A stretch of 64,000 nt of DNA from Daejeonella sp. JGW-45 (GTDB taxonomy: Bacteria > Bacteroidota > Bacteroidia > Sphingobacteriales > Sphingobacteriaceae), in NCBI RefSeq assembly GCF_029360805.1, contig NZ_JARKNC010000008.1:496001-560000 (forward strand), in the 5' to 3' direction. This document shows, one piece after another, positions 34,020 through 41,026 of this stretch. Every line of letters begins with the position of its first letter. Position 1 is the first letter of the stretch. Position numbers and translations under genes: made by a program. The notes under the pieces are model-generated. The model was not told the origin of the DNA. It saw nothing but the letters and a program-made list of their open reading frames with translations, and made no database searches.

Positions 34020-35117
34020 ATGAAGATTACCCACACCGAGATCTACCGATTTAGCATTCCAATGGAGCCGTTCGTTATTGCTACGGGGGTCATGGATTAC
34101 GCCCAAAATGTTTTCATACGTGTCTATACAGACTCGGGCCTTCACGGTGTTGGAGAATGCTCAGCGTTCCCGATGATCGTCGGAGAAACACAGGAGACAT
34201 GTCTTGCCATGGCAAAAGATTTCGCAAAAATATGGAAGGGTAAAGATGCCGGCAAAATAGAGCAACGCATACAGGATCTGCATAATGTTGCGGCTTATAA
34301 TCCGACTATCAAAAGCGCCTTTGATATGGCGCTGTATGATCTCGCTGCAAAAGCGGCAGGCCTGCCACTTTATAAATTCCTGGGTGGAGATAAGCGAATT
34401 GTGGAGACAGACATGACTATTGGGATTGGTACAGCCGAAGAAATGAGTGAACTGGCTCTAGGCTATAAAGCCCAGGGAGCAACAATCTTAAAGATCAAGT
34501 TAGGCAAAAAGCCTGATGATGATCTTGTGCGCATGCGGAAAATACGGGAAGCCGTGGGTTCTGAAATGACCCTTAGAATTGATGCAAACCAGGGATGGGA
34601 TTATGATGCAGCAATAACATGTCTGAATGGGATGCAAGCGCTCGGCATCGAGTTCTGTGAACAGCCTATGCGAACCTGGTACGATGACCAGCTACCAGAG
34701 CTAAGAAAACAGACGTCGATAAAGATCATGGCTGATGAAAGCTGTTACAATCATCATGATGCGAGAAAGTTAATAAATTCAGAGAGCTGCGATTACATTA
34801 ACATAAAATTTGCCAAATCAGGCGGAATACATGAAGGCTTGAAGATCCACCATGTTGCGTCAGAAGCCGGCATACCGTGTATGATTGGAAGTATGCTCGA
34901 AAGCAGAATAGCCTTAAGCGCCAATTTACATTTTGCTTATGCGTGCGATAACATTAAGTATTTCGATCTTGACACATGTCTTTTAGGCCATTTGGTTGAC
35001 CCGGTGACAGGTGGCCTGACTTATAAAGGTTATTTCCTGGATCTCCCCGAGGCCCTTGGAATTGGAGCTGACGCAGATGAGGAATTCCTCAAGAGGTGTG
35101 AAAAATTTACTGTTTGA
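34020..35117 (+). CDS. Enolase-superfamily dipeptide epimerase
   Basis: 365 residues of the mandelate racemase/muconate-lactonising enzyme family. Visible: catalytic KIKLGK (Lys-x-Lys), metal ligands RIDANQGW (Asp), EQPM (Glu) and DES (Asp), and the C-terminal FDLDT, whose DxD binds the substrate amino group in Ala-Glu epimerases. It probably epimerises L-Ala-D/L-Glu or a related dipeptide from muropeptides. It is convergent with an M20 peptidase, and a second paralogue lies at 61204-62268. No consensus promoter was found in the 167-nt upstream spacer. Confidence 0.85.
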   Translation: MKITHTEIYRFSIPMEPFVIATGVMDYAQNVFIRVYTDSGLHGVGECSAFPMIVGETQETCLAMAKDFAKIWKGKDAGKIEQRIQDLHNVAAYNPTIKSAFDMALYDLAAKAAGLPLYKFLGGDKRIVETDMTIGIGTAEEMSELALGYKAQGATILKIKLGKKPDDDLVRMRKIREAVGSEMTLRIDANQGWDYDAAITCLNGMQALGIEFCEQPMRTWYDDQLPELRKQTSIKIMADESCYNHHDARKLINSESCDYINIKFAKSGGIHEGLKIHHVASEAGIPCMIGSMLESRIALSANLHFAYACDNIKYFDLDTCLLGHLVDPVTGGLTYKGYFLDLPEALGIGADADEEFLKRCEKFTV

Positions 35118-35169
35118 AAGGAGAATTGAGAATGGCATTCACCACTCACAACCCTCCTGTCGCATTAAA

Positions 35170-36540
35170 CTATTTGCTTAGCTCAGCGAAATATTTGTGA
35201 AACAAAGGGATCGTTTCAATGCCTTTGTAAAAATTAGCGATATCGAACTTCTCATTTGGAGAGTGCAAGTTGTCACTATCAAGTCCGAATCCCATTAAAA
35301 CCGTCTTTATACCTAACTCCTTTTCAAACAAGGCCACAATTGGTATACTTCCTCCACCCCGAGTCGGAATCGGTTCTTTACCGAACGACTGTAGAATTGC
35401 CTTTTGTGCTGCTTGATAAGCGATACTATCCGTTGGCGTAACGACAGGTTCTCCTCCGTGGTGGGGACTAACTTTTACTTTTACACTTTTCGGAGCTATC
35501 ATCTCAAAATGATCCTGGAAAAGCCTGGTAATTTCATCAGAATTCTGATTTGGCACCAGTCGCATTGAGATCTTAGCGAAGGCTTTAGACGGCAGGACAG
35601 TCTTCGCCCCCTCCCCTATATAACCTCCCCATATACCGTTCACTTCCAAAGTCGGCCGTGTACCCGTTCTTTCTAAGGTGCTGTAGCCCTTTTCTCCCCA
35701 AAGCTCTCCCACTTCAAGATCTCTTTTATATTCAGCCTCATCGTACGGTGCCTTATTAAGGTCCTCCCTTTCCTTCTGACTCAATTCTGTAACCTTGTCG
35801 TAAAAACCAGGAATGGTTATATGGTTATTCTCATCATGCAATGATGCTATAAGCTTAGCAAGAATCGTCGCTGGGTTTGCCACGGCACCACCGTAAACAC
35901 CAGAATGAAGGTCGCGGTTCGGACCTGTTACTTCAACCTCCACATAAGATAATCCGCGTAAGCCAGTTTCGAGAGATGGGTGCTCAAGGCTTATCATCGA
36001 CGTGTCGGAAATCAGCACTACATCAGATTTAAGCCGTTCCTTATTTTTGCCCACAAAAATACCCAGGTTGGCAGAACCGACTTCTTCTTCACCCTCTATC
36101 ATAAATTTGATATTGCAGGGCAAGGTATTAGTTTCCATCATAAGCTCGAATGCCTTAACGTGCATGTAGAATTGACCTTTGTCATCGCAGGCACCGCGGG
36201 CGTAGATCTTTTGATCGCGAATCGTTGGCTCAAACGGTGGCGTTTCCCACAATTCGAGGGGATCAGCGGGCTGAACATCGTAATGACCATACACTAAGAC
36301 TGTAGGTAATGATGAATCTATAATCTTATCTCCGTATACAATTGGATATCCGTCGGTAGGACAAATCTCAACATTGTCAGCCCCGGCGACTTTCAACTTT
36401 TCAGCAACGTAATCAGCTGTTTTAAGAACATCTCCTTTATATTTAGGATCTGCACTTATAGAAGGAAAGCGGAGCAGCTCAAAAAGCTCGTCCAGGAAGC
36501 GCTGCTTATTATCGCTTACATATTTTCTAATCTCTTGCAT
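35170..36540 (-). CDS. M20 family metallo-dipeptidase
   Basis: 456 residues from ATG 36540; the longer frame begins inside a promoter box and is rejected. Zinc-site motifs of M20: YGHYDVQP (His, Asp), ARGACDDKGQ (Asp), EGEEEVGS (Glu-Glu) and a late HSPNE (His). The lid/dimerisation domain spans about 190-310. It hydrolyses dipeptides in the cytosol. Gene context with the epimerase suggests use of peptidoglycan-derived or nutritional dipeptides. Confidence 0.92.
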   Translation of the reverse strand: MQEIRKYVSDNKQRFLDELFELLRFPSISADPKYKGDVLKTADYVAEKLKVAGADNVEICPTDGYPIVYGDKIIDSSLPTVLVYGHYDVQPADPLELWETPPFEPTIRDQKIYARGACDDKGQFYMHVKAFELMMETNTLPCNIKFMIEGEEEVGSANLGIFVGKNKERLKSDVVLISDTSMISLEHPSLETGLRGLSYVEVEVTGPNRDLHSGVYGGAVANPATILAKLIASLHDENNHITIPGFYDKVTELSQKEREDLNKAPYDEAEYKRDLEVGELWGEKGYSTLERTGTRPTLEVNGIWGGYIGEGAKTVLPSKAFAKISMRLVPNQNSDEITRLFQDHFEMIAPKSVKVKVSPHHGGEPVVTPTDSIAYQAAQKAILQSFGKEPIPTRGGGSIPIVALFEKELGIKTVLMGFGLDSDNLHSPNEKFDIANFYKGIETIPLFHKYFAELSK

Positions 36541-36555
36541 ATAATTGGTTTTATA

Positions 36556-36563
36556 CAAAGATA
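36556..36563 (-). promoter_or_regulatory. -7 box TATCTTTG for M20 peptidase
   Basis: An exact TAnnTTTG on the minus strand, ending 15 nt before the ATG at 36540. It excludes the longer frame that would begin at 36558. No clear -33 TTTG was found. Confidence 0.55.
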
Positions 36564-36573
36564 GAAATCTATA

Positions 36574-36622
36574 AATAGCCGTCCCATAAATGGTAAATAA
36601 ATTACCAGGTGGAACGGCTATT
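36574..36622 (-). terminator. Hairpin between peptide gene and M20 gene
   Basis: The outer arms AATAGCCGT / ACGGCTATT and the inner arms TGGTAA / TTACCA form a stacked hairpin 20 nt after the stop of the 53-residue peptide gene. There is no strong T-run, so the call as terminator is tentative. Confidence 0.5.
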
Positions 36623-36641
36623 AGATTAAGCTGAGGACTAA

Positions 36642-36803
36642 TTAATCCCAGCTCGCCAGTCTTTTCTCATCAAGTTTATGAGAAAAATCCATTTTTTCTG
36701 AATTCAAAGGCTTGGTGATCTTACTTTCAGGAGTATTGGTAGCTATAGTGAATCCTAATGAGAGAAAGCCTGCTGCTGCGATTATTGATAGTAATTTTTT
36801 CAT
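36642..36803 (-). CDS. 53-residue secreted peptide, unknown function
   Basis: ATG at 36803 to TAA. Begins MKKLLSIIAAAGFLSLGF, a full Sec signal peptide with likely cleavage after Ala21 (FTIA/TNTP). The mature peptide is about 32 residues, charged and amphipathic, and ends in ASWD. It is the second of two small genes on the minus strand: the 81-residue lipoprotein gene ends 34 nt upstream. Both are divergent from the TPR/DHp membrane protein gene at 37200. Its reality is supported by the good signal peptide, a stop followed by a hairpin, and its position. No family is recognised; a signalling peptide is only one possibility. Confidence 0.6.
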   Translation of the reverse strand: MKKLLSIIAAAGFLSLGFTIATNTPESKITKPLNSEKMDFSHKLDEKRLASWD

Positions 36804-36837
36804 GGCTATATTGTGTTAACTTTGAAAATATTGTGAA

Positions 36838-37083
36838 TTATTTCTTACTTTTCCCTGTTTTGGCAGGTGCACTGGTTGAGTCTGTTGTTGTCGGAGATTC
36901 TACTCGCATAGTACTTGCTTCTGGATCTGGCTCGACGATATCCCACTGACCGCAGCCACCGCACATTTTTAGGTCATCTGCTTTAAGCGACGTCTTTTCC
37001 TCAGGAGCAATAGTTTCATTTTTTTCGCATCCACTTAAAGAAATTGTTCCTAATACAGCTAGTGTTAATAATACTTTTTTCAT
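36838..37083 (-). CDS. 81-residue small lipoprotein with CxxC
   Basis: A lipoprotein signal ends at Cys19 (SLSGC). The mature part of 62 residues contains CGGCGQWDIVEP (Cys41-x2-Cys44) and a Ser/Thr/Lys tail. The Trp-Asp shared with the end of the next small peptide is noted but may be chance. The CxxC could be a disulphide or metal site. It starts 116 nt from the divergent TPR sensor. Function unknown; no paralogue is visible in this window. Confidence 0.72.
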   Translation of the reverse strand: MKKVLLTLAVLGTISLSGCEKNETIAPEEKTSLKADDLKMCGGCGQWDIVEPDPEASTMRVESPTTTDSTSAPAKTGKSKK

Positions 37084-37199
37084 GATTTTTGAGGTTTGTT
37101 TTATTGTTTATAATGAGTGTTCTAATCTGGTTAAATAAAATTCCCTGCGATTTGGTCGAATTGTCTAAATTTATTTTAATCTTACAACCAAATACGGGG

Positions 37200-38657
37200 A
37201 TGAGAATATTGAACTTAATATTGTTATTTATAAGCTTCAATGCTTATACGCAAAACATTGAAAAAAGTTCCATAAATCCCGGCGCTATCTCCGATACTTT
37301 AGAGATTATAGCACTTAATAATCAGGCATTTAAAGCTAGGTTAATTAATCCGGATATTACAATATCAAAAGCAAATAAAGCTCTAAAATTAGCTTTAAAG
37401 TTGGACTATACCAATGGGATTGCAGAGTCTTACAGGGTAATTGGAGTTGGGAAAAGTTATCAAAATTCGATTGACGCGGCTGTAGAAAATTATTTAAATG
37501 CTCTAACCTATTTTAAAAAAGGCAACAACCTGGAAGGTGAAGCAAAAATATATAATAACATAGGCAACCTTTACCGTGATATAGATACTCAAAAATCGCT
37601 TGATAATTTTAATAAAAGCTTACAAATCGCTAAAAAATTAAAAATCAATGACCTTATAGCAGGCCTGTATTTGAATATAGGCACGGCCTATCAAAAACTA
37701 AGAAATTATCCTAAAGCTCTCTCTTACTACAGGGTATGCTTGTCAATGTTCAAAGACTTAAACAATAAGATCGGCCTTATCCAAAGCCATCAAAACCTGG
37801 GAGTTTTATACCTTAACCTTAGGGAGTTCGAAAAGGCTGAGCAAAACCTTGAGGAAGCTTTATTTAAAGCTAAAGAAGAAAAATTAACTAATTCTCTGGC
37901 GGCCATAAACCTCACCCTCAGTTCAATTAATATTGCCCAAAATCAATTTAAAAAAGCGGAAGAAAATATCAGAGAAGGTCTGATCCACACCCGTTTGCTT
38001 AAAGATGCCAGGCTGGAGTACAATTACACCCTCATATCCTACCAGCTCGAAAATAAGCGCAAAAACTATTTCAAAGCGTTAAGTTATCTTCAGCGAGCTT
38101 ATAAGCTGGATAGCGTGCTTTATGCTAATAACATTTCAGACAAAATTAGTTTATTAGAATCTCAGCACGTACAACTGGAAAAACAACGGGAAAGTGAATT
38201 GATAATCGCCCGTCAGAAGTATACTCAGATACTATTCTGGGCTACCAGCATTGTAGCGTTACTGGCATTCTTCGTGATTTTCCTTCTGGTCAGGAACGTT
38301 AAAAAATCATCTCAGACGAACATGGAACTCACGCGGTTGAACAAGGAGGTATCCAAACAAAAAGACGACCTTGACCGTGCTAACCAAAACCTGGAAGAAC
38401 TCATTGAAGAGCGAACCATTGACCTAAAGAAGAAGAACAAGAAGCTCTCAGAGTACTCATCTCACCTTTCTCATCAAATCCGAAGCCCGGTTGCTACTTT
38501 AAAGGGACTTATGCTGCTTGAAAACGATGATCTGATTGATAATGAGGAATTTATTGAGCAAATGGAAAAATGCATCAACGATCTCGACGATAAGATCATT
38601 AATATCAATGAGAACTTAAATAACCCTGGTCGGTCAAGTTTAATAAACGAAGATTAA
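37200..38657 (+). CDS. TPR membrane protein with orphan DHp domain
   Basis: 485 residues from ATG 37200, chosen because MRILNLILLFISFNAYTQ is a signal peptide. Order: signal peptide, six or more TPR units (about 60-330) outside the cytoplasm, one transmembrane helix (about 343-363), a coiled coil (365-415), then a histidine-kinase dimerisation/phospho-acceptor segment (SHLSHQIRSPVATLKGLMLL, His425). The protein stops about 60 residues later, so the HATPase_c domain is absent. Such a protein could accept phosphate from another kinase or act as a dominant partner. A sensor for the small secreted peptides encoded divergently is an inference from position. Confidence 0.82.
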   Translation: MRILNLILLFISFNAYTQNIEKSSINPGAISDTLEIIALNNQAFKARLINPDITISKANKALKLALKLDYTNGIAESYRVIGVGKSYQNSIDAAVENYLNALTYFKKGNNLEGEAKIYNNIGNLYRDIDTQKSLDNFNKSLQIAKKLKINDLIAGLYLNIGTAYQKLRNYPKALSYYRVCLSMFKDLNNKIGLIQSHQNLGVLYLNLREFEKAEQNLEEALFKAKEEKLTNSLAAINLTLSSINIAQNQFKKAEENIREGLIHTRLLKDARLEYNYTLISYQLENKRKNYFKALSYLQRAYKLDSVLYANNISDKISLLESQHVQLEKQRESELIIARQKYTQILFWATSIVALLAFFVIFLLVRNVKKSSQTNMELTRLNKEVSKQKDDLDRANQNLEELIEERTIDLKKKNKKLSEYSSHLSHQIRSPVATLKGLMLLENDDLIDNEEFIEQMEKCINDLDDKIININENLNNPGRSSLINED

Positions 38658-38744: not shown

Positions 38745-38758
38745 AGGAGCGAAATTTG
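38745..38758 (+). promoter_or_regulatory. Shine-Dalgarno and TTG start of uvrD
   Basis: AGGAG (38745-38749) lies 6 nt before TTG 38756-38758. The codon starts MDYLDGLNPSQ, the normal helicase N-terminus, so the TTG is chosen. A strong purine Shine-Dalgarno is unusual in this window, where most starts lack one. Confidence 0.7.
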
Positions 38759-41026
38759 GATTATTTAGACGGCTTAAACCCTTCACAAAAGGCGGCGGTA
38801 GAACAGACGGAAGGGCCAGTGATGATTGTAGCGGGAGCCGGCTCAGGTAAAACCCGGGTTATTACATACCGCGTTGCTCATCTCATTCGTAAAGGGATTG
38901 ACCCTTTTAATATTCTGGTACTTACTTTTACGAATAAGGCTGCCAAAGAAATGCGTGAACGCATTATGAAGGTGGTTGGAGCTGAAGCTAAAAATATCTG
39001 GATGGGCACCTTCCATTCGGTTTTTGCCAAACTTCTCAGAGTCGAAGCACAGAAAATCGGCTATCCGAATAACTTTACTATTTACGATACAGACGATAGC
39101 AAAAGCCTCATAAGGGCTATCCTGAAAGAACTTCAACTGGACGACAAATTATACAATGCAAATTTCGTTTACAATCGAATATCGTCTTCAAAAAATAATC
39201 TGATCTCCCCTGCCGAATACCTGCAAAATGAGCACATTCAAGCTGAGGATTTGTCATCCGGACGAGGGAAAATGGGGGAGATTTACCAGATATACTCCCA
39301 AAGATGTTATAAGGCAGGTGCAATGGATTTCGACGACCTTCTTTATAAAACAAATGTATTATTAAGGGAACACCCTGATGTACTTTACAAATATCAAAAC
39401 AAGTTTAGGTACCTGATGGTAGACGAGTACCAGGATACTAATTTTTCGCAGTACCTGATCGTAAAAAAGCTAGCCGCAAATAACGAGAACATTTGTGTTG
39501 TCGGTGACGATGCCCAGAGCATTTATGCCTTCCGGGGAGCGAATATCCAGAATATCCTTAATTTTGAAAGGGATTACCCGGACCTGAAAATCTTTAAGCT
39601 TGAACAAAACTACCGTTCAACCAAAAACATTGTTAATGTTGCCAACAGCATTATAGCCAATAACAAAAATCAGCTCAAAAAATCTGTTTTCTCTGAGAAC
39701 GAAGAGGGAGATAAAATTAAAGTTTCAAGAGCCTTCAGTGATAATGAAGAAGGAAAAATAGTTGCAGAAGCTATTGCACAGGAACAGGCTGTGAAAGGTT
39801 CAAGATATAGTGATTTTGCTGTCCTATACCGGACCAATGCTCAATCCAGAGCTATGGAGGAATCGCTGCGAAAACTAAACGTTCCATATAAAATATACGG
39901 CGGCACTTCTTTTTATCAACGGAAGGAGATAAAAGATCTGATCGCCTATTTCAGGATCACCTTCAATCCTAATGATGAAGAAGCTATAAAAAGGGTCATT
40001 AACTATCCGCGCCGGGGTATTGGCGATACTACTATTGAAAGGATTATTATAGCCGCTGACCAGCATAATATTACTTTATGGGAAGTTATTTCTGAAGCAC
40101 ACCGTTATCTTGATGCAAGAAGTGCGACAGCTGTCAGCAATTTTGCATTAATGATTCAGAGCTTTCAGGTCATGACCAAAACTCATTCGGCTTATGATAC
40201 TGCCCTGCATATTGCCCAACATTCCACTATATTAAAAGACCTGTATTCAGATAAATCGATAGAAGGATTGAGCCGGTATGAAAACATCCAGGAACTCCTG
40301 AATGGTATCAAAGAATTCAGTGAACGCGAGGATATTGAAGAAAAGGGCTTAGATGTCTTCATGCAGGACGTTGCCTTGCTCACCAATGATGATAACGATA
40401 AGAATCCCAATGCCGACACAGTATCTCTCATGACGATACACTCCGCCAAAGGACTCGAATTCGACAACGTTTTTGTTGTAGGACTCGAGGAAAATCTTTT
40501 CCCGTCACAAATGTCTTTGAGCTCACGTAGTGACCTCGAAGAAGAAAGACGTTTATTTTATGTTGCAATTACACGAGCGGGAAAAAAGCTCACCCTATCT
40601 TATGCGACCTCAAGATATCGCTGGGGAACTTTAACGAGCTGCGAACCAAGTCGGTTTATAGATGAGATCGATGCAAGTTACCTTGAACTCGATTTCAAAC
40701 CGAAACAAATAAATACGGGCAACCCCTTCTTCGATGGGGAAAGGTCGGCGTGGCAGCAAAAAGAATCATTCACCAAGCCTAAACCTGCGTCCGCTGTTAA
40801 AACAACTTCGATATTACCGAAGGCTCACGTACCGAGCGCAAATTTTGCCCCGTCCGATACGTCGGGTCTGCAGGTTGGCATGGAAGTGGAACACGAACGC
40901 TTTGGCTTTGGCAAAGTTATAAACCTGGAAGGCAGTAAACCTGATGTTAAAGCCACTATCTTTTTTAAAGATTTAGGACAGAAGCAATTATTGTTAAAAT
41001 TTGCTAAATTGAAAATTGTTAAATAA
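38756..41026 (+). CDS. uvrD: UvrD/PcrA-type DNA helicase
   Basis: 756 residues with a TTG start. Superfamily-1A motifs: LNPSQKAAV (Q motif), AGAGSGKT (Walker A), LTFTNKAA, DEYQDTN (motif II), GDDAQSIY (III), LEQNYRS (IV), LMTIHSAKGLEF (V) and VAITRA (VI). A Tudor-like domain lies at the end (VGMEVEHERFGFGKVI). It unwinds 3'-5' in nucleotide excision and mismatch repair and removes RecA. It is a single gene followed after 64 nt by a DUF4290 gene, probably one transcript. Confidence 0.96.
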   Translation: MDYLDGLNPSQKAAVEQTEGPVMIVAGAGSGKTRVITYRVAHLIRKGIDPFNILVLTFTNKAAKEMRERIMKVVGAEAKNIWMGTFHSVFAKLLRVEAQKIGYPNNFTIYDTDDSKSLIRAILKELQLDDKLYNANFVYNRISSSKNNLISPAEYLQNEHIQAEDLSSGRGKMGEIYQIYSQRCYKAGAMDFDDLLYKTNVLLREHPDVLYKYQNKFRYLMVDEYQDTNFSQYLIVKKLAANNENICVVGDDAQSIYAFRGANIQNILNFERDYPDLKIFKLEQNYRSTKNIVNVANSIIANNKNQLKKSVFSENEEGDKIKVSRAFSDNEEGKIVAEAIAQEQAVKGSRYSDFAVLYRTNAQSRAMEESLRKLNVPYKIYGGTSFYQRKEIKDLIAYFRITFNPNDEEAIKRVINYPRRGIGDTTIERIIIAADQHNITLWEVISEAHRYLDARSATAVSNFALMIQSFQVMTKTHSAYDTALHIAQHSTILKDLYSDKSIEGLSRYENIQELLNGIKEFSEREDIEEKGLDVFMQDVALLTNDDNDKNPNADTVSLMTIHSAKGLEFDNVFVVGLEENLFPSQMSLSSRSDLEEERRLFYVAITRAGKKLTLSYATSRYRWGTLTSCEPSRFIDEIDASYLELDFKPKQINTGNPFFDGERSAWQQKESFTKPKPASAVKTTSILPKAHVPSANFAPSDTSGLQVGMEVEHERFGFGKVINLEGSKPDVKATIFFKDLGQKQLLLKFAKLKIVK

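Follow-up and report, generated by a model that had tools for sequence, protein, structure and literature searches.

A candidate peptide ligand–receptor module of repeated prepropeptide genes and a membrane-bound TPR protein in Daejeonella and its relatives

In a stretch of 64,000 nucleotides from Daejeonella sp. JGW-45 (Bacteroidota, family Sphingobacteriaceae; contig NZ_JARKNC010000008.1 of assembly GCF_029360805.1, positions 496,001 to 560,000; hereafter the window), two small genes lie next to, and divergent from, a gene for a membrane protein with tetratricopeptide repeats (TPRs). We think it fairly probable that this locus is a peptide ligand–receptor module. We find the case evenly balanced that it represents an undescribed class of Gram-negative peptide pheromones, in which tandem or intragenically repeated prepropeptides, many of them surface lipoproteins, would supply an Asp-ending core, typed at the preceding residue (W, F, Y, A or G), to an inner-membrane receptor with a periplasmic TPR domain and a phospho-acceptor domain lacking an ATPase. 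This reading builds on a gene family, its synteny and joint presence or absence with the TPR gene, its copy number, the selection acting on the core, and the predicted topology and fold of the receptor.

Both small open reading frames (ORFs) are where the initial annotation had placed them, on the minus strand. The distal (M20-side) gene of this array encodes a 53-residue precursor (36642..36803) with a Sec-type signal and no lipobox, whose C-terminus is the core KRLASWD (residues 47-53; 36645..36665, minus strand), and endings of the KRLA[SN]WD type were also found at L020, L021, L022, L024, L025 and L065 (L numbers label loci, G numbers label genomes, and the window's own genome is G000). 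The proximal gene (36838..37083) encodes an 81-residue precursor that is indeed the CxxC lipoprotein it had been taken for, with a lipobox (...SLSGC19, lipid-bearing Cys19) and CGGC at residues 41-44. Here the core, CGGCGQWD (residues 41-48; 36940..36963, minus strand), is internal, and its CxGCG..WD form occurs in close relatives. A Trp-Asp core is common to both small proteins. Signal sequences were called by eye and by a simple pattern.

Beyond a 116-bp divergent intergenic region (37084..37199), which has no clear promoter consensus, comes the gene for the candidate receptor (37200..38657, plus strand; 485 residues from the ATG). It encodes a signal sequence, a TPR solenoid (residues 27-317 in the AlphaFold2 model; 37278..38150), a transmembrane (TM) helix with RNVKK at its end (about residues 344-368; 38229..38303), a coiled coil and a HisKA-like (DHp) domain (residues 417-464; 38448..38591, with His425 at 38472-38474). 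The TM helix and the HisKA-like domain had gone unmentioned in the initial annotation. The ORF is open from a TTG (37089-38657, plus strand; a 522-residue reading), and the ATG at 37200 is most likely the start, because the signal sequence follows it and because the ORFs of relatives start with ATG (for example L020, 485 residues, which aligns end to end); ortholog starts in our alignment of 91 proteins were picked nearest to 485 residues, so that length is no evidence for the start codon.

Small genes of the same kind recur across relatives. We analysed 91 TPR loci, the window included, comprising 11 genomes of a first search for relatives and 80 further regions, and an automatic filter returned 351 precursor genes at 81 of them, a generous list that may include a few false genes (for example a 244-residue ORF in L078). 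In the 11 genomes of that first search, the interval between a gene for an M20-family peptidase (the contig end in the case of L023) and the TPR gene was occupied by small genes with the orientation of the M20 gene: G015 has three lipoproteins with KTLGSFD and one secreted protein with KELASFD at the end, G004 two genes ending in DLGSYD and one in ELASYD, G012 seven ending in TTQWD, and G031 five with GNWD plus one ending in AASWD. Arrays held from 1 to 12 genes (median 4) at a median spacing of 52 bp (270 gaps), the layout expected for one transcript. The core was repeated at least three times in 94 genes of 37 loci, with a maximum of 37 copies. Specifically, a 70-residue protein of L129 carries KKDIGTAD five times, at a locus with six such neighbouring genes, a 209-residue protein of L106 contains DKKNVGTAD about 15 times, and a 490-residue protein of L125 has 37 copies of TGTGD. 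The main core was single-copy at 24 of 82 loci; 15 of these 82 assignments were manual, and two of the automatic ones (L096 and L099) look wrong. In one repeat precursor (L126:3618-3875, in TPR orientation) the reading frame departs from the repeat in mid-array, as expected from repeat slippage.

Across 81 loci the core consensus is D-K-[KR]-D-[LVI]-G-[TSQ]-[A/W/G/Y]-D, with Gly at position -3 in 58, Lys at -7 in 59 and, by the definition of the core, Asp in all 81. The core is under purifying selection, and the spacers are hardly conserved. When precursors of the same locus with divergent leaders were compared (468 pairs, 41 loci), identity was 0.38 over the first 20 residues, 0.23 from -18 to -7 and 0.81 over the last six, the requirement of a D ending fixing only the final residue of the core and not the preceding five; the last six residues exceeded the middle in identity at 41 of 41 loci. 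Codon differences pointed the same way, with 1197 synonymous and 541 nonsynonymous in the last 6 codons against 475 and 4321 in the 12 codons before, and cores repeated within one gene mostly had several DNA spellings. The residue before the final Asp was the same in the distal and the proximal gene at 34 of 41 loci (mean 18.5 and maximum 29 in 10,000 shuffles), an agreement to which shared ancestry contributes. Since pairs and loci are related, these counts are descriptions and not independent tests. Among signal-bearing ORFs of the M20-TPR interval that had not been filtered by C-terminus, 144 of 209 end in D, with none on the TPR strand, compared with 25 of 483 ORFs of at least 200 residues in the fetched loci. 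Between the window and its nearest relative, the 53-residue gene differs by 18 synonymous and 20 nonsynonymous codon changes and the 81-residue gene by 28 and 30. The G+C content of the window is 36.8% at 36001-38000 and 40-48% in the other 2-kb blocks, which perhaps reflects fast evolution of the array and the receptor.

As initially annotated, the small peptides are unrecognised: searches of 11 precursors (the two window proteins and nine others) against Pfam and NCBIfam gave no sensible match above a curated cut-off. We discarded matches to PG1828_fam_lipo, a frog-skin propeptide and similar models, which begin at residue 1 and mainly cover the signal region, as well as matches of repeat precursors to PLDc and FAM47 (above their cut-offs) and to PBP3, which look like low-complexity artefacts. 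Precursors with several conserved short cores occur among ribosomally synthesised and post-translationally modified peptides (RiPPs), and the small genes could accordingly be RiPP precursors with a maturase encoded elsewhere, the TPR protein serving in biosynthesis or its regulation. We regard this as quite unlikely. The NCBIfam model for chryseobasin-related MNIO peptides did match the 81-residue protein (E 0.083) and an L030 precursor (E 0.0047) weakly, but at 13.6 and 17.6 bits against a curated cut-off of 40, and the match of the receptor to the RiPP TPR protein HaaT (E 2e-9) reached 36 bits against a cut-off of 1125, its best stretch (residues 92-186 of the 522-residue reading) being TPR sequence. 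Moreover, no maturase was recognised among the flanking genes of 10 syntenic loci, in a survey short of a gene-by-gene scan; the leaders are of the Sec or lipoprotein type; and beyond position -2 neither a Cys nor a Ser/Thr is fixed in the consensus core. Judged by their sequences, then, the precursors are not recognised RiPPs.

Another reading takes the core as a docking tag, by which small structural or envelope-stress proteins would be held or monitored by the TPR protein, for example as a sensor of lipoproteins stuck in the periplasm. Two observations speak for it. Of the lipobox precursors under 140 residues, 133 of 160 have Lys at +3 and Asp or Glu at +4, which is near the Capnocytophaga surface-export signal C-X-K-(D/E)2-X after the lipid Cys (as given in excerpts of PMC5080379) if the second acidic residue is not required, the CEKNE that follows the lipid Cys of the window's 81-residue lipoprotein being a partial match; and some cores are internal, with a C-terminal extension. 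A trafficking reporter would hardly explain why so many genes carry three or more cores, or why 191 of the 351 precursors counted have no lipobox or are at least 140 residues long, and the low conservation of the spacers also argues against it. We therefore consider the docking tag unlikely, and return to the ligand–receptor module as the favoured reading.

The initial annotation had proposed looking for conservation of the trio in related genomes, and co-occurrence is what we found: in the genomes examined, precursors and TPR gene are present together and absent together. Ten related loci keep the order M20-[peptides]-TPR-helicase within the limits of each contig. Where the M20 gene is in view, 63 of 66 loci passed the filter, their precursors being encoded opposite to the TPR gene; inspected by eye, the three that failed are L115, with a long polycore gene containing a run of N, and L092 and L094, with one lipoprotein each, ending in TYGE or TYEE. 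Where it is not in view, 18 of 25 loci have precursors, and in the other seven the TPR ORF starts 46-1196 bp from a contig end. A length-limited filter had marked 18 of the 91 loci as peptide-less, a class that we abandoned, as 12 rechecked loci resolved into eight polycore loci, three with a single lipoprotein that has no clear core (L092, L094 and L096) and one (L137) near a contig end, the six not rechecked also lying near contig ends.

Within the window's genus, 13 of 20 genomes have a TPR ortholog and all 13 have precursor genes; searches at E <= 0.01 and at E <= 1e-3 brought up no homolog of either small protein in the other seven. Homologs of the 53-residue protein (E <= 3e-4) were found in 8 of 60 genomes, its own included, and seven lie beside the TPR gene; in G011 the homolog is on another contig, and a TPR ortholog is present in the genome. 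Homologs of the 81-residue protein (E <= 0.01) were found in 11 of 60 genomes, again including its own. In G011 (contig C9; L023/L005) the ortholog of the 81-residue gene is interrupted by an in-frame stop ahead of the core, and the adjoining TPR ORF runs uninterrupted for 479 residues. With a repeat precursor as the query, 14 of 201 family genomes gave a match; all 14 are TPR-positive members of a single genus, and in 13 a match lies on the TPR contig.

Conserved flank order keeps neighbours together without any functional link, and relatives do conserve it here, so the TPR protein and the small genes might simply be unrelated neighbours. We hold this to be very improbable. Four genomes (G002, G008 and G016, and G063 elsewhere in the family) have the M20 and helicase genes as divergent neighbours, and the roughly 176-378 bp between them contain no TPR gene and no peptide genes; purifying selection acts on the core in paralogs with different leaders; and no such precursor ORF was present within the fetched flanks of nine TPR-paralog loci, nor in those of two remoter relatives (L057 and L058). 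In two further TPR-negative genomes (G032 and G023) other genes stand between M20 and helicase, and nine further TPR-negative loci showed no core-like small gene in the fetched stretch.

Searched at E <= 1e-60, the receptor matched 155 of 399 family genomes in 11 genera, at least two of these genomes (G002 and G010) by a paralog only. In a class-wide sample 6 of 295 genomes matched at E <= 1e-90, a strict limit that leaves room for remote relatives, and all six belong to the window's family. A scan of genome contigs returned one remote Bacteroidales locus only. A plasmid search found no receptor relative, and the nearest plasmid copies of the helicase, from Bacteroidota, had up to 51% identity.

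The location of the TPR membrane protein and its divergence from the peptides were as first described; the TPR domain, which had been put outside the cell, is by prediction periplasmic, because a signal sequence and the TPRs precede a TM helix ending in RNVKK. The AlphaFold2 model (64 sequences) had a mean predicted local distance difference test score of 86.8, with 89-98 per ten residues over 31-300. Foldseek returned LGN-peptide complexes first, followed by RapF, RapJ, RapH and kinesin light chain among others, and a second structural aligner gave Z scores of 27.9 for APPBP2 with a C-degron, 25.8 for RapF with an inhibitory peptide, 24.3-24.6 for phage Rap with pheromones and 23.1 for NprR-NprX, in a list mixed with TPR proteins whose roles differ, TONSOKU and subunits of APC/C among them. 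Seven of the solenoid's ten top structural matches were Rap proteins solved with peptide. Since TPR solenoids bind many partners, these matches indicate compatibility only, not function. Conserved groove residues are E76, R79 (position 5; 91 of 91 proteins), K116 (2), N119 (5), N120 (6), N123 (9), N159 (6), Q198 (5) and N199 (6), numbered by canonical TPR groove position.

At the other end of the receptor, His425 of the HisKA-like domain is present in 91 of 91 aligned proteins. A HisKA match was obtained for 57 of 64 orthologs (E <= 0.01, best 5e-7), the window protein scoring 18.7 bits against a cut-off of 26.9. The C-terminus follows 21 residues past this match, and HATPase_c was absent from 11 families in the window and from the 25 commonest of 46 families matched in the 64 orthologs. 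On its sequence the receptor is therefore not a full histidine kinase. A longer TPR paralog elsewhere in the genome (L034:6491-8287, G000:C9, minus strand), 35% identical to the receptor, has an ATPase-like C-terminus by eye and no peptide genes beside it.

In a peptide ligand–receptor module, the small genes would be prepropeptides made up of a signal of the Sec or lipoprotein type, a rapidly changing spacer and a short core in one to many copies, about [KR]-[DE]-[LIV]-G-x-[W/A/G/Y]-D, with KRLASWD and CGxWD as the window's versions. The precursors would be exported, as their signals support, and the lipoproteins are probably displayed on the cell surface. From here we infer cleavage, release, binding, signalling and the control of some process. 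Proteases would cut the precursors, probably close to the basic pair and behind the Asp, and so set free, in the periplasm or outside, a short peptide whose last residue is the Asp or one close to it; such release is suggested by the repeats and by cores at the protein end, and cores with residues after them, that of the window's 81-residue protein included, would be cut out or read internally. The periplasmic TPR domain, encoded divergently from the precursors, would then bind the peptide in its concave groove, a conserved row of Arg, Lys and Asn reading the Asp and the backbone and a variable pocket reading the residue before the Asp. Across the membrane, binding would alter the coiled coil together with the phospho-acceptor-like domain, and the altered receptor would act on a partner kinase or regulator encoded elsewhere. 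More copies, as genes or as intragenic repeats, would mean a higher signal dose, as in self-sensing (pheromone) systems.

The peptide-sensing unit proposed at the outset thus fits the arrays, the repeated cores, the selection on them and the Rap-like fold, and several points weigh against it. TPR is a common fold with many partners. The proteins often do not stop at the core Asp: among the 209 unfiltered ORFs, 65 end in a residue other than D, and the window's 81-residue protein continues for 33 residues after its core Asp. L092, L094 and L096 have no clear core. At least 244 of the 399 family genomes had no receptor match at E 1e-60. A lone 56-residue lipoprotein with CRKCTETWDIIEP (L026:8226-8396; G018:C8:204225-204395), related to the 81-residue protein (E 4e-5), lies away from any TPR gene; after it, at L026 8740-9195, there is a gene resembling a helix-turn-helix membrane protein. 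Covariation between receptor and core was considered at residue 155 (groove position 2 of its repeat), which is Gly at 28 of 32 loci with aromatic-type cores (W, F, Y, M, C), at none of 35 with A cores, at none of 14 with G cores and at the single S-core locus, and we rejected it as evidence: six changes on the tree are enough to account for the three classes, so that ancestry alone could give the pattern.

The output side raises further points of this kind. The residue after a phospho-acceptor His is acidic in typical kinases; after His425 it is Gln in 83 of 91 proteins. With this Gln and no ATPase domain found, the output of the receptor would probably pass through a partner or a protein contact, and neither a response regulator nor a partner kinase was recognised at the locus among the neighbouring genes. 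A Bacteroidetes-type promoter pattern stood upstream of 9 of the 351 precursors and of none of the 91 TPR genes.

Other regulatory signals were at the level of shuffled sequence, a generic sigma-70 scan of the locus giving 9 hits with 7.1 expected and a terminator scan 2 with 1.5 expected. Apparently enriched 8-mers upstream of precursors were set aside, being A/T-rich or resembling the sequence around the stop codon of the array gene before. At the 10 syntenic loci, the recognised flanking genes encode an M20 peptidase, a helicase, a small conserved protein and an enolase-superfamily-like protein. In the window, the array is flanked by the M20-family dipeptidase gene (35170..36558, minus strand), also present at array-less loci, and the receptor gene by that for a UvrD/PcrA-like helicase (38756..41026, plus strand). 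The gap between dipeptidase and precursor genes has a median of 121 bp (63 loci), and they are possibly cotranscribed. Beside the array, at 34020-36558, the dipeptidase gene adjoins the enolase-superfamily-like gene, presumably of the dipeptide-epimerase-like kind.

A literature search, outside which lay most subscription papers and all preprints, found neither these cores nor a system of this kind described. There is a real chance that the system forms a new class of peptide signalling in Gram-negative bacteria. Gram-positive bacteria are known to use peptide pheromones with TPR receptors; here multicopy precursors would be paired with their own membrane TPR receptor in 11 genera of one family. 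If so, peptide communication in a group of Bacteroidota would be open to direct test, with ligands that can be read from genomes and synthesised and an ectodomain of compact fold, and the W, F, Y, A and G cores would offer a natural set of candidate ligand-receptor pairs for studying how TPR-groove specificity changes.

Among known systems, FimS and the BT3442 family are TPR sensors of Bacteroidota with the order TPR-TM-signalling domain, which the receptor shares. It differs in stopping after the DHp-like domain, it scored far below the cut-offs of the corresponding NCBIfam models (54 of 600 bits and 58 of 940), and its paralogs have no array in the fetched flanks. TPR domains of the carboxylate-clamp type, in CHIP, PP5 and others, read an EEVD-type C-terminal Asp motif (excerpts of PMC8913300 and PMC11259706). 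The invariant Arg79 and the conserved Lys116 and Asn119/120 at groove positions of the receptor recall such a clamp. The classical clamp positions, K5-N9/N6/K2-R6, are however not matched as a set, the basic and Asn residues here not all standing at them, and the core Asp is often internal. The TPR groove of kinesin light chain reads a short Trp-acidic or Tyr-acidic peptide (PMC6214655, in excerpt). Kinesin light chain is among the sequence and fold matches of the receptor, an analogy of ligand reading only, as it is a eukaryotic cytosolic cargo adaptor and its ligand is not secreted.

For the precursors, the closest likeness is to multicopy prepropheromones of the yeast alpha-factor type, in which a signal peptide is followed by tandem short peptides; KKDIGTAD, present five times in a 70-residue protein, likewise forms tandem short peptides with basic residues between them. 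These pheromones belong to another kingdom and another type of receptor, and no processing enzyme was identified here.

The RRNPP systems of Firmicutes (Rap-Phr, NprR-NprX, Rgg and arbitrium Rap), whose peptides are re-imported into the cell, resemble the locus in that a small gene for a Sec-exported propeptide adjoins a TPR receptor gene. Their size criteria, in the available text of PMC10075063, are a TPR receptor of 250-500 residues and an adjacent exported propeptide of 10-100 residues, and RRNPP receptors are described there as intracellular. Here we find a 485-residue receptor with TPRs at 27-317 and adjacent proteins of 53 and 81 residues with export signals by eye. In contrast to RRNPP, the host is Gram-negative, the precursors are multicopy, often lipoproteins and divergent from the receptor, and the receptor combines a signal sequence with a single TM helix and a DHp-like domain, sensing being predicted to take place in the periplasm. 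The system would thus resemble RRNPP signalling in the way it works, yet it falls outside that group, since its receptor is predicted to be periplasmic and membrane-bound.

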